The notes under the pieces: generated by a model | Databases searched by the model: none | Seen by the model: only the letters and a program-made list of their open reading frames with translations | What the model was told of the DNA's origin: nothing | Origin: Pandoraea apista | GTDB taxonomy: Bacteria > Pseudomonadota > Gammaproteobacteria > Burkholderiales > Burkholderiaceae | Direction of reading: 5' to 3' | DNA length: 64,000 bases | NCBI RefSeq assembly: GCF_001465595.2 | Contig: NZ_CP013481.2 | Coordinates: 1,860,001-1,924,000 of the forward strand | Translations under genes and position numbers: made by a program | In this document: one piece after another, positions 4,992 through 43,079 of the stretch | How the letters are laid out: every line of letters starts with the position of its first letter | How positions within the stretch are numbered: position 1 is the stretch's first letter

Positions 4992-5051
4992 GGCGACGGG
5001 CAAAAAAGAGGGCGGGAGGCGTGCAGACGCAACCGATAGCGTGTGCGGCCG

Positions 5052-5114
5052 GACCGGCACCCCATTCCGCTGCGAGTTGGGTCACTGTCTGAGTGGCGGA
5101 ATGGGGTGCCGGTC
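5052..5114. repeat. hairpin repeat, class C copy 1
   Basis: Perfect 19-base inverted repeat: arm 5052-5070 begins GACCGGCACCCC, and arm 5096-5114 is its exact reverse complement. They flank a 25-base loop (5071-5095) containing GCGAGTTGGG and GTCTGAG. The same loop, in reverse orientation and with a different stem, occurs at 43007-43079. Just downstream (about 5119-5131) GCGAGTGGGGT nearly repeats the loop motif. It lies in the MocR/GNAT intergenic region. Confidence 0.85.
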
Positions 5115-5140
5115 TGGCTTGCGAGTGGGGTAACGCAAAC

Positions 5141-7478: not shown

Positions 7479-8519
7479 TCAGAACTTGGTGCGCATGCCC
7501 ACCCCAAAAGTATTCCCGGCTTCGAGTCCGGAAACCTTGTCGTTCAGGTAGGCCACATAGAGATCCGTACGTTTGGAGAGGTTGTAATCGTAGCCGAGCG
7601 CCCAGGTGTTTCGGCTCGTGTCGTTCATGCCCGAATTCTTCGTATAGGCAAACGAAGCCATCACGTTGCCCCCGCCGAGCGGTACCGAAACGCCCAACTG
7701 CCCGCCGTTCGACGTCAGATTGCCGCCGGTAATCGTGTTCTTGATGTACTGATACTGGCCGTAGAGCTTGACCACCTGGAAATCGTACGTCAGACCGGCT
7801 TGCAGGGCCTGCTGATTACGGAATCCGGTGATGCCGGCCTGATCGTCCGGTGTCGAATCGAACTTCACCTGCTGATAGGCCAGCGTGGCGGCGAGCGGGC
7901 CGTGGAAGTACATCGCCGCGGCGCTCCACTTGTTCTGACCCATTTCTCCGGCCTTGTTGCCGAACGCGTACGAGAAGCTGGCGCCGAGCCCCTTGTAGTC
8001 CGGCGTGGCGTACATCACTGCGTTATTCCAACCCGAATCACCGACGATCCCCTGACCCGCGAGACCGAGGAACGTGTGATAGACCATCGGGCTGAACGTA
8101 TAGGAGTCGACGAACGGGTTGAACAGAATCGTCGAGACGAAATAGGACGTGGTGAGGCGTCCCATCGTGACCGTGCCGAGCGTGTTCGATTGCAGTCCGA
8201 CGTAGGCGTTGCGAGAGAAGAAGCTGTCGCCGGTAAAGCGTCCGTAACGTCCGCTTTGCGGCAGGAAGAAGTCCTCAAGCGTGAAGATCGCCTTGAGACC
8301 ATCGCCCAGATCCTCCGAACCCTTCATGCCCCAGTAAGAGGTGGACATCCCGCCACCCCCCTGTGTCCACGCGCGTTCGCCGCCCGGTGCTTTCGCGGCA
8401 CCGACCCAGGCGTCGACCTGGCCGTAGAGCGATACGTTCGACTGTGCGTGGGCGACGCCCGCCGCGCCGCAAACCGCGAGGGCGAGCGCGCCCCGCAGCC
8501 AACCTGCTGCCTTGCTCAT
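7479..8519 (-). CDS. general porin (Burkholderia-type, OmpC-like)
   Basis: A 346-residue outer-membrane trimeric beta-barrel porin for passive uptake of small hydrophilic solutes. A signal peptide covers residues 1-20 (ALALAVCGAAGVAHA, cut before QSNVSLYG). Barrel strands follow, with the periplasmic-turn and L3-like stretch SRNAYVGLQSNTLGTVTMGR. The protein ends in the phenylalanine needed for BAM recognition (GVGMRTKF). The ATG at 8519 has GGAGA upstream. The frame is open farther upstream, but that part does not look coding. It is preceded by a 900-base non-coding region full of hairpin repeats. Confidence 0.92.
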   Translation of the reverse strand: MSKAAGWLRGALALAVCGAAGVAHAQSNVSLYGQVDAWVGAAKAPGGERAWTQGGGGMSTSYWGMKGSEDLGDGLKAIFTLEDFFLPQSGRYGRFTGDSFFSRNAYVGLQSNTLGTVTMGRLTTSYFVSTILFNPFVDSYTFSPMVYHTFLGLAGQGIVGDSGWNNAVMYATPDYKGLGASFSYAFGNKAGEMGQNKWSAAAMYFHGPLAATLAYQQVKFDSTPDDQAGITGFRNQQALQAGLTYDFQVVKLYGQYQYIKNTITGGNLTSNGGQLGVSVPLGGGNVMASFAYTKNSGMNDTSRNTWALGYDYNLSKRTDLYVAYLNDKVSGLEAGNTFGVGMRTKF

Positions 8520-8779
8520 GAATGTGTCTCCGTCTCGTTTTAGTTTGTGCGTGCCTCTGAACTTCTCTTTTTCACCGAAGAGTGCAAGGGGCACGCCTGA
8601 GTCATTGACACACTGACTTCGCTTTGCGCGGGTATCGGTGTTGCTTTGAGGCGTGATTATTATTATCAAGTTGCCTCACATGACATATCACTCGGCTTTG
8701 ATACTCGGTATTCCGTTGTTGACGGCACAATTTTCGGGTTAACACGGGCGGTTTCCCCCTTGCACGCGATTTGCGGTCT
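8520..8779. other. porin upstream region, no gene
   Basis: About 260 bases of lower GC content before the porin, presumably its promoter and leader. No convincing coding frame or strong promoter was seen by eye. The hairpin repeats begin right after it. Confidence 0.4.
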
Positions 8780-8850
8780 GCCGTCGGCGGGGTCCCCGTT
8801 TTCGTCGCTCCACGAAATTCGCTTTGGAAAACGGGGACCCCACCGACGGC
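8780..8850 (+). repeat. hairpin repeat, class A copy 1
   Basis: Arms 8780-8803 and 8827-8850 (24 bases, one mismatch) flank a 23-base loop at 8804-8826 beginning GTCGCTCCACG. The inner stem CCCCGTTTTC/GAAAACGGGG is shared with copy 2, but the outer stem (GCCGTCGGCGGGG) is not. The single mismatch would be a G-U pair in RNA from the minus strand. Confidence 0.9.
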
Positions 8851-8918
8851 CATCTCCATGCCACCGATTCGACGCAACCCTCTCCACTACACTCGCTTGC
8901 ACAGCCCCATGCCTCACC

Positions 8919-8940
8919 GTCACGACGACACCGCCTCTTC
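8919..8940 (+). repeat. conserved box between hairpins A and B, copy 1
   Basis: A 22-base box starting GTCACGACGACACCG lies between hairpins A1 and B1. Its reverse complement, with one change, is at 9219-9240 between B2 and A2. The rest of the spacer is pyrimidine-rich and diverged. Confidence 0.8.
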
Positions 8941-8949
8941 CAGCGCAAA

Positions 8950-9008
8950 GGGTCTCGCAGCTCGTCCCCACGTGCTTCGCAACAGATGGGGCCCGAGCCG
9001 CGAGACCC
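8950..9008 (+). repeat. hairpin repeat, class B copy 1
   Basis: Arms GGGTCTCGCAGCTCG (8950-8964) and 8994-9008 pair with one mismatch (G-U on the minus strand). The centre 8965-8993, with CCCCACGTGCTTCGCAAC and TGGGGCC, is exactly the reverse complement of the centre of copy 2 at 9151-9209. Confidence 0.88.
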
Positions 9009-9150
9009 TCGACACGACACCCGTGCCCCCATCACCCGGACGGCAAGCGCCGAGCCTGCCGACACCGCCGTCACACACCCGGCGATACGCATCGTGCATT
9101 TCACGCCGGCACTGGCGAGCCGGGCAAGGGAATGTTCACGGGGATAACGA
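9009..9150. other. axis of the A-B-B'-A' mirror, no gene
   Basis: About 140 bases between the two B hairpins. Short GC-rich inverted stretches (GCCGGC, CCCGG) are present, but I see no conserved long hairpin, no coding frame that looks real and no insertion-sequence ends. Confidence 0.4.
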
Positions 9151-9209
9151 GGCGCTCGCCGACCGGGCCCCATCTGTTGCGAAGCACGTGGGGACGGTCG
9201 GCGAGCGCC
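9151..9209 (-). repeat. hairpin repeat, class B copy 2 (inverted)
   Basis: Perfect 14-base arms GGCGCTCGCCGACC (9151-9164) and its complement (9196-9209) enclose the same centre as B1, read in the opposite direction. The arms share no sequence with B1 apart from GC-richness, so the stem is conserved as a pairing rather than as a sequence. Confidence 0.88.
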
Positions 9210-9218
9210 TGGGCGCAA

Positions 9219-9240
9219 GAAGAGACGGTGTCGTCGTGAC
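9219..9240 (-). repeat. conserved box between hairpins B and A, copy 2
   Basis: Reverse complement of the 22-base box at 8919-8940 with one change. It keeps the same order and spacing relative to its A and B hairpins. Confidence 0.8.
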
Positions 9241-9307
9241 GAGGCGAAGGGGGAAGAAGCGGGGTGGGAGCGGGGATGGGTTGCAACGATGCGGGGGCGT
9301 GCTTCGA

Positions 9308-9378
9308 GCCGTGGGGCCGCTCCCCGTTTTCCAAAGCGAATTTCGTGGAGCGACGAAAACGGGGAGCGGCCCCACGGC
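9308..9378 (-). repeat. hairpin repeat, class A copy 2 (inverted)
   Basis: Perfect 24-base arms (9308-9331 and 9355-9378) around loop 9332-9354, which is the exact reverse complement of the A1 loop over all 23 bases. The outer arm begins GCCGTGGGGCCGC and differs from A1. Spacing A1-B1 (99 bases) and B2-A2 (98 bases) is almost the same, so the whole 8780-9378 stretch is a mirror. Confidence 0.9.
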
Positions 9379-9424
9379 CGACCGTTGACAGGCGAATTGG
9401 TCAGCTCTCAGCCGGCAAGGGACG

Positions 9425-10264
9425 TCAACGAATGGCGCGCCAACTGGCGTTATGCGCAGCGAGCCAGTTTTCGGCGAGCTTCGGATCCCCGTGACGGTTC
9501 GGATGAAACGACGGTGCGAGGTACTTGAGCATTGGCCCGGTGCTGCGCCACACGACGCCATCGCGACCGAAGAACATCGTAGTGAACCCCCACCACGTGC
9601 GAGGCTTGAAGAGTGTGCCATCGTGCCAGAGGTTGTTGATCGTCTGCGCATGACTCTCCAGCGCGAACATGAACAACACGTAGAGATAGGTGAGTATGCG
9701 CTGACGCTCGCTACCACCGAGGGCACGGTATAGATCGAACGCCACCGCCTTGTGCTCGGTTTCCTCGGCCGCGTGCCAGCGCCACATCAGGCGCATCTTC
9801 GGCTCAGCCTTGGCAAGCCATCGGTCGTACCGGAGCGCGCCGTCGCCAAATACCGCAGTGCAGTGCTCGTATGCGGCGGTCACGGCGAGCATGTACATCG
9901 GCGAGAGCTTGCGGCGGCGAGCCCATTGAATGCGCGTCGTCGCCCAGTTCTCCCAATGATTGACCAGTCCCTGCTTCGCCAACTGCGCGTTGTACTGGCC
10001 ATGCAGATGGCGGTGTGTTGCCTCTTGTCCAATGAACTGCGCAATGTCGGCGCGCAGCTTGTCGTAGCGAGCGTCGTCGGGCAGACGATCCATCGTGTCG
10101 CGCACCGAGTCGATAAACGATTGTTCGCCCACCGGAAAACTCATCGATAGCGCGTTGTAATACATCGTGCGGTATGCATCGCCGCTATGCCAATGACGGT
10201 CGAAGCCGCTGGCCAGATCGACGGTCAGCTTGCGTACGGTCAGGGCAGAAATGTCGTTGCTCAT
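9425..10264 (-). CDS. predicted metal-dependent hydrolase (PF10118-like)
   Basis: A 279-residue protein of the 'predicted metal-dependent hydrolase' family, whose activity is not established. Histidines and acids that could bind metal occur as [23 protein letters not shown] and [16 protein letters not shown]. This spacing recalls a ferritin-like four-helix fold (known for related sequences, inferred here). A hydrophobic stretch ([12 protein letters not shown]) follows. It is divergent from the TetR gene at 10421, which probably controls it; such pairs are common for this family. The start at 10264 is the only sensible ATG. Confidence 0.78.
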
Positions 10265-43006: not shown

Positions 43007-43079
43007 AGACGGACCGGGGCCCCTTTCCGCCTCTCAGACATAAACCCAACTCGCTGCAGAAAGGGGCCCCGGTCCGTCT
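43007..43079 (-). repeat. hairpin repeat, class C copy 2 (inverted)
   Basis: Perfect 21-base arms: 43007-43027 begins AGACGGACCGGGGCCCC, and 43059-43079 is its complement. They flank a 31-base loop. On the minus strand the loop reads GCGAGTTGGGT, four bases, GTCTGAG: the same core as the loop at 5071-5095, while the stems differ. It is followed on the plus strand by a pyrimidine-rich stretch (43080-43155), like the spacer in the 8780-9378 element. Confidence 0.85.

Follow-up and report, generated by a model that had tools for sequence, protein, structure and literature searches.

What is kept in a non-coding stretch between two ordinary genes of Pandoraea that holds four long hairpins in mirror order, a piece of DNA or a folded strand? 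In the present study, this question was addressed in a window of 64,000 nucleotides from Pandoraea apista (contig NZ_CP013481.2, positions 1,860,001 to 1,924,000 of the forward strand), in which the mirror takes up 611 bp of intergenic sequence. The first-pass annotation had described a single four-hairpin element of the order A-B-B'-A', and it had offered a mobile repeat, a structured RNA pair and a nucleoid or protein-binding site as its possible natures. All four hairpins were found, with ends within one base of those proposed, but the mirror makes most sense as one B-A module of about 245 nt that is present twice, once on each strand, with both copies facing outward (Table 1).

Table 1. 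Features of the mirror, its flanks and its class D relatives (positions in the window)
Feature	Position	Strand	Basis or remark
Porin gene (Pfam Porin_4)	about 7479-8520	minus	one flank of the mirror
Predicted metal-dependent hydrolase gene (Metal_hydrol)	9425-10264	minus	other flank of the mirror
Module 1 (B1-linker-A1), 246 nt	8774..9019	minus, read leftward	same motif points in 12 genomes
Hairpin A1, second hairpin of module 1; 24-bp stem, 23-nt loop	8780..8850	minus	pairing and covariation
Box GGCGGTGTCGTCGTGACG in linker 1	8918..8935	minus	alignment
Hairpin B1, first hairpin of module 1	8949..9009	minus	pairing and covariation
Centre spacer, 120 nt	9020..9139	no strand	118-340 nt across 12 genomes
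Module 2 (B2-linker-A2), 245 nt	9140..9384	plus, read rightward	motif points, fold
Hairpin B2, first hairpin of module 2	9150..9210	plus	pairing and covariation
Box GACGGTGTCGTCGTGACGAG in linker 2	9224..9243	plus	alignment
Hairpin A2, second hairpin of module 2; 23-nt loop	9308..9378	plus	pairing and covariation
Class D hairpin	5048..5118	plus	dispersed relative in architecture; second hairpin of B-D modules in other Pandoraea
Class D hairpin, second copy in the window	43007..43079	minus	same class
B-D module loci	L302, L195, L209, L210, L184, L180, L306, L176

Architecture, pairing and strand polarity of the modules

Each module runs from hairpin B through a G-rich linker of 94-97 nt to hairpin A. 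The A2 stem is perfect (24 of 24 Watson-Crick pairs), and that of A1 has 23 Watson-Crick pairs and one G·T among its 24 bp. The A loops of the window are identical as reverse complements, as had been noticed, and the identity extends across the inner stem as well; both arms likewise contain the box that lies between A and B, and the GGT of the linker 1 box, GGCGGTGTCGTCGTGACG, was invariant in 25 of 25 aligned rows. To call the outer stems unrelated between the copies was an overstatement. They have instead diverged, the left arms agreeing by eye at 9 of the outer 14 nt in A1 and A2 and at 11 of 16 nt in B. The folding z was -6.1 and -6.9 for the two arms, and 0 of 200 dinucleotide shuffles were as low in either case. 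Closing pairs of the type GGU-ACC are among the pairings predicted for the module. When 864 kb were scanned (the window together with 40 stretches of 20 kb, including 9 chosen for holding a class D copy), 18 hairpins of at least 50 nt passed the score, namely the four of the mirror, 11 of class D and three unrelated ones. On the module strand, the linkers contain 49.5% G and 14.2% C, with G above C in 24 of 24, and the GC skew changes sign at the centre of the mirror. A G-quadruplex in the linker was considered and rejected, as the motif occurs in 3 of 24 linkers, below the 6.3 expected from shuffles.

The expectation that the stems vary and still pair was borne out by covariation in classes A and B, and uncompensated drift of the stems was not what was seen. 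In class A, 98.7% of 624 cells are paired and changes on both sides occur in 10 of 24 pairs (27 rows, 26 distinct), and sliding the partner left 38-51% paired. In class B, for which 23 rows were used (one arm each of G004 and G019 was omitted from the 25 B hairpins), 99.1% of 437 cells are paired, with changes on both sides in 6 of 19 pairs, and the slid controls gave 34-46%. Shuffling, a test that is inflated here by the relatedness of the sequences, gave values as high as those of class A in 0 of 500 cases; in class B, the count of pair types was reached by 4 of 500 shuffles and the other measures by 0 of 500.

A stronger sign of selection on folding than this covariation appears to be the polarity of the imperfect pairs. 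Over the four hairpin sets, read on the module strand, the ratio of G·U to A·C was 160:4 cells, the copies not being independent. It was 61:2 in class A (31 copies in module orientation), made up of 19:1 in arm 1, 19:0 in arm 2 and 23:1 at other loci, and it was 27:0 in class B (25 copies), 50:2 in class D (45 distinct copies) and 22:0 in the first hairpins of the B-D modules described below (8 copies). The cells are non-independent; counted as distinct combinations of column and type, which was done for A at the main locus (24 modules) and for D, the ratios were 9:1 and 15:2, respectively. Mismatches besides A·C, mostly A·G and G·G, made up 5, 16 and 16 cells in A, B and D, and in one count G·G and A·G together gave 5, 16 and 13 cells against 38, 23 and 50 of G·U.

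Tolerance of G·U does not prove RNA, since G·T is cheaper than A·C in DNA too: the mismatch costs are 3.4 and 5.3 kcal/mol with DNA parameters and 2.5 and 6.5 with RNA parameters. In DNA, G·G (2.8) and G·A (3.6) cost about the same as G·T, and the comparison of RNA with DNA mismatch energies is not decisive because transitions outnumber transversions anyway. Strand-symmetric mutation or correction at the DNA level gives no reason for the G·U excess. As both arms alike prefer G·U to A·C on the module strand, what selection acts on seems to be a folded single strand of fixed polarity, either RNA or ssDNA. Since this same polarity lies on opposite DNA strands in the two arms, each arm is most naturally taken to give a folded strand of its own. 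Judged from the sequences, the polarity speaks against a double-stranded DNA site and against one RNA spanning all four hairpins. Of the natures offered at first, the mobile repeat and the structured RNA both survive, the latter as something other than one RNA across the four hairpins, while a nucleoid site on double-stranded DNA is disfavoured by the opposite-strand polarity.

The mirror site in other Pandoraea genomes

A whole-element search of 101 genomes gave matches in 15, those in G017 and G076 covering only 35-37 nt, and the full mirror was found between the same two genes in 12 genomes. The hydrolase gene was matched in 26 of the 32 genomes of the genus and is whole in 25 (it is split in G015). 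Among these 25 genomes, 12 have the mirror and 13 are without it, so the element is dispensable, and empty sites in related genomes, which the first-pass annotation had proposed to look for, do exist. At 12 of the 13 mirror-less sites, the end of the hydrolase gene lies 55-287 nt from a conserved porin-leader motif. Two of the 13 genomes carry scars. In G006, the nearest relative of G002, a deletion has fused the outer arms of A2 and A1 (L044), and in G005 only an end-like scar remains. The G006 assembly is also without the start of the porin gene at this locus. On an unrooted tree of the 2.3 kb up to the end of the hydrolase gene, in which 16 of 22 inner branches are firm, the presence of the mirror needs 3 changes against a shuffled mean of 8.6; so few changes make an old element that was lost in some lineages likely, though this is not shown.

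Between the same motif points, every one of the 24 modules in the 12 genomes measures 245-248 nt, and the linker length is steady although the linkers average only 71% alike. In two species the centre of the mirror has grown through direct copies of 71-73 nt, which are diverged, and in a third through a 40-nt repeat (L032 4922-5133, L031 5111-5256 and L034 5058-5240); TRF, run on L032, reported no tandem repeats in the mirror centre. Over 66 genome pairs, the mean identity was 0.57 at the fourfold sites of the hydrolase gene, 0.91 in the A loop, 0.88 and 0.86 in the A arms, 0.85 in B, 0.71 in the linker and 0.63 in the 60 nt before B. Between the group of G007, G010, G011 and G027 and the rest (32 pairs), the fourfold sites were 0.49 and the A loops 0.83 identical. 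This conservation in place suggests that the folded strand is still used at the mirror locus.

The same four genomes have a different A loop centre at the mirror, in both arms of each genome, but their A copies at other loci have a loop centre that resembles that of other species; the two arms therefore seem to have been homogenised locally. The loops of A1 and A2 agree fully in 11 of the 12 genomes, with a one-base difference in G026, and G010 has a half-converted A2 arm. At the mirror, fixed anatomy and covarying stems are thus found together with a G·U-not-A·C polarity in both arms and with conservation above that of fourfold sites.

Related modules and associated genes at other loci

Further copies in related genomes were present, as had been expected. 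The covariance-model search that had been proposed gave, for hairpin A, matches in 13 of 32 genomes and added no locus to the whole-element search (149 candidates scored per genome). A hairpins are scarce, with 1-4 per carrying genome at 1-3 loci when reverse-strand cross-matches are excluded. A search of Burkholderiaceae genomes had been proposed; in the scan for the exact class A core, relatives were found in Pandoraea and not across that family. All 16 of 16 stretches from named species genomes with this core were from Pandoraea, P. terrigena and P. communis being among the species named, and the window's own record may not be included in this count. The same core gave 0 matches in viral contigs, and the element gave none in plasmids and phages. 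As far as searched, the relatives of the mirror appear to be confined to Pandoraea. A covariance model of B gave matches in 22 of 32 genomes at E 0.001, the E-values being rough and reverse-strand cross-matches included; weak B hits of 64-69 nt were not counted, two of which lie at the aminotransferase site (G022 and G002) without the B loop.

A C-A module lies between the aminotransferase and aldehyde dehydrogenase genes in G007, G010, G011 and G027, with a decayed A in G013, and a second C-A locus lies 3' of an aspartate decarboxylase gene in G027. At this G027 site, the C-A insertion of about 300 nt is absent from G011, G010 and G007, in which the two flanks are 95/95%, 94/91% and 90/88% alike; by eye, no target duplication was evident at this insertion, whose flanks have diverged. 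A B-A module was found beyond the cold-shock gene of G007 (L022), and weak B matches lie near this site in G010 and G027. At L022 4507-5305, the cold-shock gene stands between a remnant of the left A end and the complete B-A module. The gene might be read as a cassette between two ends, of which the left A hairpin has only its outer end there. At the thioesterase site, G013 (L146) has a B-like hairpin with the loop GCAGTGGCAAAGCACG where G007 has a B-A module, so this locus may be old. The mirror arrangement was not found elsewhere: there is no inverted partner at the 8 B-D loci, within the stretches examined, and no whole one at the ectopic A loci, among which L022 has the end remnant.

The loop of class D is GCGAGTTGGGT...TGTCTGAG, and its stems differ between copies but pair. 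The exact core of class D was found in 14 of 41 genomes searched, all 14 being among the 25 Pandoraea and none among the 16 others, and the window's genome has at least 11 exact-core copies. Class D alone gave at least 18 matches in one genome (at most 23 candidates scored). Contigs C1 and C5 of G001, C9 of G019 and C5 of G002 begin or end no more than about 60 nt from a class D loop; assemblies therefore seem to break there, and the copy numbers should be read as minimum values. Within the window's genome, pairs of D copies mostly have 65-113 nt in common around the hairpin, with 122 and 141 nt in two pairs, one further pair that is a 1-kb gene duplication having been left out of these lengths. 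According to GC3-based gene calls, the 11 D sites of this genome stand in 7 convergent, 2 codirectional and 2 divergent gene settings.

In eight B-D modules, a B-type first hairpin with other stems is followed by a linker of 90-104 nt (96-97 in 6 of 8), which contains a GGTGTC box, and by a class D hairpin. A B-type partner lies upstream in 8 of the 44 distinct D copies with enough upstream sequence, the other 36 being without it. A B-D block of 272 nt is common to two loci of G014, where it is 90% alike and has unrelated flanks. With no more than 23 candidates scored in each genome, one B-D module used as a query had matches at E 1e-5 in 21 of 32 genomes. Among the matches listed, 15 in 10 genomes span at least 245 of 273 nt, and of these 10 genomes 8 are without the mirror and 2 (G004 and G019) have it; most of the remaining matches listed cover the D hairpin alone. 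Besides the mirror, the family thus has relatives with another second hairpin and one insertion that is absent from close relatives.

Signals of transcription and of a known RNA were also sought. Before the 24 modules, no sigma-70-like promoter scored clearly above shuffles (9-100% of shuffles were as good), the lowest share, 9%, being that of module 1 of the window. The porin leader, by comparison, scores 9 of 12. There were no promoter-like sites inside the element, and the two found in 8400-9500 lie in the porin leader. The earlier view that this is not an ordinary terminator was upheld, with 0 terminator-like sites (hairpin and T-run, loops of 3-8 nt only) in 8400-9500. No Rfam family was matched at the gathering threshold; at a lax threshold only microRNA models came up (E 0.05-0.36), far below their cut-offs, and these were discarded. 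Two further candidates were inspected by eye and rejected: a pseudoknot between loop and box is conceivable in L022 and G007 and not in the other clade, and the GGA of CsrA-type loops lies in the loop only in class A and one form of C.

No transposase linked to the element was found. A RAYT-like Y1 transposase gene (PF01797; L247 1459-2160 and orthologues) is present in 32 of 32 Pandoraea genomes. It lies upstream of what we take to be glutamate synthase. RAYT was rejected as the driver, as the 7 loci of this gene that were scanned are without A, B or D hairpins and as neither A nor D was matched in 10 of the 32 genomes. Beyond this gene, PF01797 was matched only in G018 and G015, each time with an internal stop.

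Explanations weighed and known systems compared

We tentatively favour, with a confidence somewhat below even, the reading that the mirror consists of two outward modules of about 245 nt of a dispersed Pandoraea family, REPIN-like and non-autonomous, kept because the folded strand, probably RNA, does something. The module would act as one folded strand in which the stems need only pair, and the loops and the box would be the parts read by a partner. The strand would be RNA from read-through or pervasive transcription and not from a promoter of its own, and the family would spread as a non-autonomous element, somewhat like REPINs. At the mirror locus, an old insertion may have been doubled in inverted orientation and retained since the binding of a protein or RNA to the loops matters, possible targets being the 3' end of the metal-hydrolase gene or the porin leader, and local gene conversion would keep the loops of the two arms alike. 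The strong preference for G·U, together with a structure that persists where the copy has stopped moving, makes RNA the first choice; ssDNA comes close behind because promoters are lacking and G·T is possible in DNA. Mobile repeat and structured RNA are not separable on the present evidence, and both survive. Mobility of the family is indicated indirectly, with no linked transposase, no target duplication seen and few A hairpins. A more specific idea, which we hold to be possible but rather unlikely, is that the modules are two-hairpin, single-strand devices with a first hairpin that reads one partner through its near-constant loop, an interchangeable second hairpin (A or D) and the G-rich linker as a fixed spacer, one device on each strand.

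The polarity may also come from one-strand recognition of hairpins in a miniature element mobilised as ssDNA (MITE-like, by an IS200/IS605-type or REP-type HUH enzyme), the mirror then being a REPIN-like doublet with no RNA function; we consider this doubtful. The ends of known HUH elements are hairpins far smaller than the A and B hairpins, and a passive copy would not be expected to stay conserved in place where the species' fourfold sites agree at 0.49-0.62. The ubiquity of the Y1 gene also counts against it, since no such hairpin lies at the 7 loci scanned and genomes with the gene may hold neither A nor D. In its favour, the 272-nt B-D block has hairpins roughly 27 and 13 nt from its borders and stands at unrelated loci, D alone is common as short blocks, the insertion shows no visible target duplication, promoters are lacking, most D sites of the window's genome lie between convergent genes, and strand-specific hairpin recognition is described in passages of PMC8266576. 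Two divergent sibling small RNAs with their own promoters in the centre would agree with the outward polarity of both arms, with the constant module length in 24 of 24 and with the stable folds. This is improbable, as none of the 24 modules has an upstream promoter-like score that clearly beats shuffles, the centre varies in length, and neither a terminator-like site nor an Rfam match at gathering was found.

Still less probable is a bidirectional transcription barrier or a stabiliser of mRNA 3' ends at gene ends. At the five A loci with genes called (the window, L022, L023, L029 and L030), a gene runs towards the second hairpin, with roughly 40-77 nt between its stop codon and the end of that hairpin, and the genes are convergent at L022, L023, L029 and L030, but the favoured strand is antisense to that gene, conservation of the loop sequence would be unneeded and there is no T-run. 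We give very little credence to an old inverted repeat of no function, with arms that stay alike through gene conversion and quasi-palindrome correction. Local conversion is visible in the identical A1 and A2 loops and in the half arm of G010; however, strand-symmetric correction would yield G·T and A·C equally, the orthologous loops are conserved across species and the linker length is constant. The least probable of all is a DNA-level cruciform or a double-strand site for a nucleoid protein: the palindromes are long, near-perfect and intergenic, but strand polarity of wobble pairs is meaningless in double-stranded DNA and the copy number of A and B is low.

The mirror offers a natural case where selection on folding is separable from selection on sequence, and its modules make strand polarity legible from wobble pairs. 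If the RNA reading is true, the modules would make up a new family of non-coding RNAs whose loops are interchangeable; if the device idea is true, they would be a class of structured RNA, or of folded ssDNA, that has exchangeable recognition loops and differs from the REPs and riboregulators described so far; and if the ssDNA reading is true, they would offer an unusually large hairpin substrate whose partner enzyme should be sought. Contig ends inside palindromes and the between-arm deletion in one genome mean that draft assemblies may under-count the modules. In the literature on Pandoraea and Burkholderiales repeats, at the level of titles and passages, no such element was recognised, which is weak evidence of novelty.

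Among known systems, the insertion elements of the ERIC, NEMIS, YPAL and RPE type are palindromes of about 100-250 nt; they occur dispersed, and their transcripts can fold as RNA. Compared by description and not by sequence, the present family differs from them in its two-hairpin polarity and its interchangeable second hairpin. Miniature elements of the IS200/IS605 type have two subterminal hairpins, are recognised on one strand and make no target duplication. The polarity and the position of the B-D block hairpins near its borders would fit such elements, as might the lack of an evident target duplication at the G027 insertion with its diverged flanks; the much larger hairpins do not, and no cognate transposase was found. 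GTAG- and CGTC-tagged REPs, in the parts of PMC3733652 that bear on this, resemble the family in being palindromic and intergenic, many of them between convergent genes, and in having head-to-head dimers, heterodimers with different stems or loops, and G·T in stems. Their stems are given there as 5-13 bp and their loops as 2-20, whereas the A stem has 24 bp and its loop 23 nt. Inspection of 24 modules by eye showed neither a GTAG nor a CGTC tag at a fixed position next to A or B, and the high copy number of REPs is lacking, with A in 13 of 32 genomes at 1-4 hairpins each. A REP-finding tool is described in part of PMC12306157 with a default loop limit of 11 nt, and by default it would therefore miss these hairpins.

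REPINs of Pseudomonas and others, as presented in passages of PMC3116915, are like the mirror in being an inverted doublet of palindromic units with compensatory changes and a spacer whose length matters, and in being mobile, non-coding and able to form hairpins in ssDNA or mRNA. The mirror differs from them in its unit of about 245 nt with two long hairpins, its 23-nt A loop, its few copies, the lack of a visible RAYT linkage and a loop sequence conserved above the stem sequence; the inverted doublet is also not its unit of spread, being seen only at the porin locus. The first-pass opinion that the mirror is not a REP agrees with its failure in the REP features examined, and in view of tag, size, copy number and transposase we do not class it as a REP or a REPIN. 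By analogy, REPINs nevertheless appear to be its nearest relative in logic.
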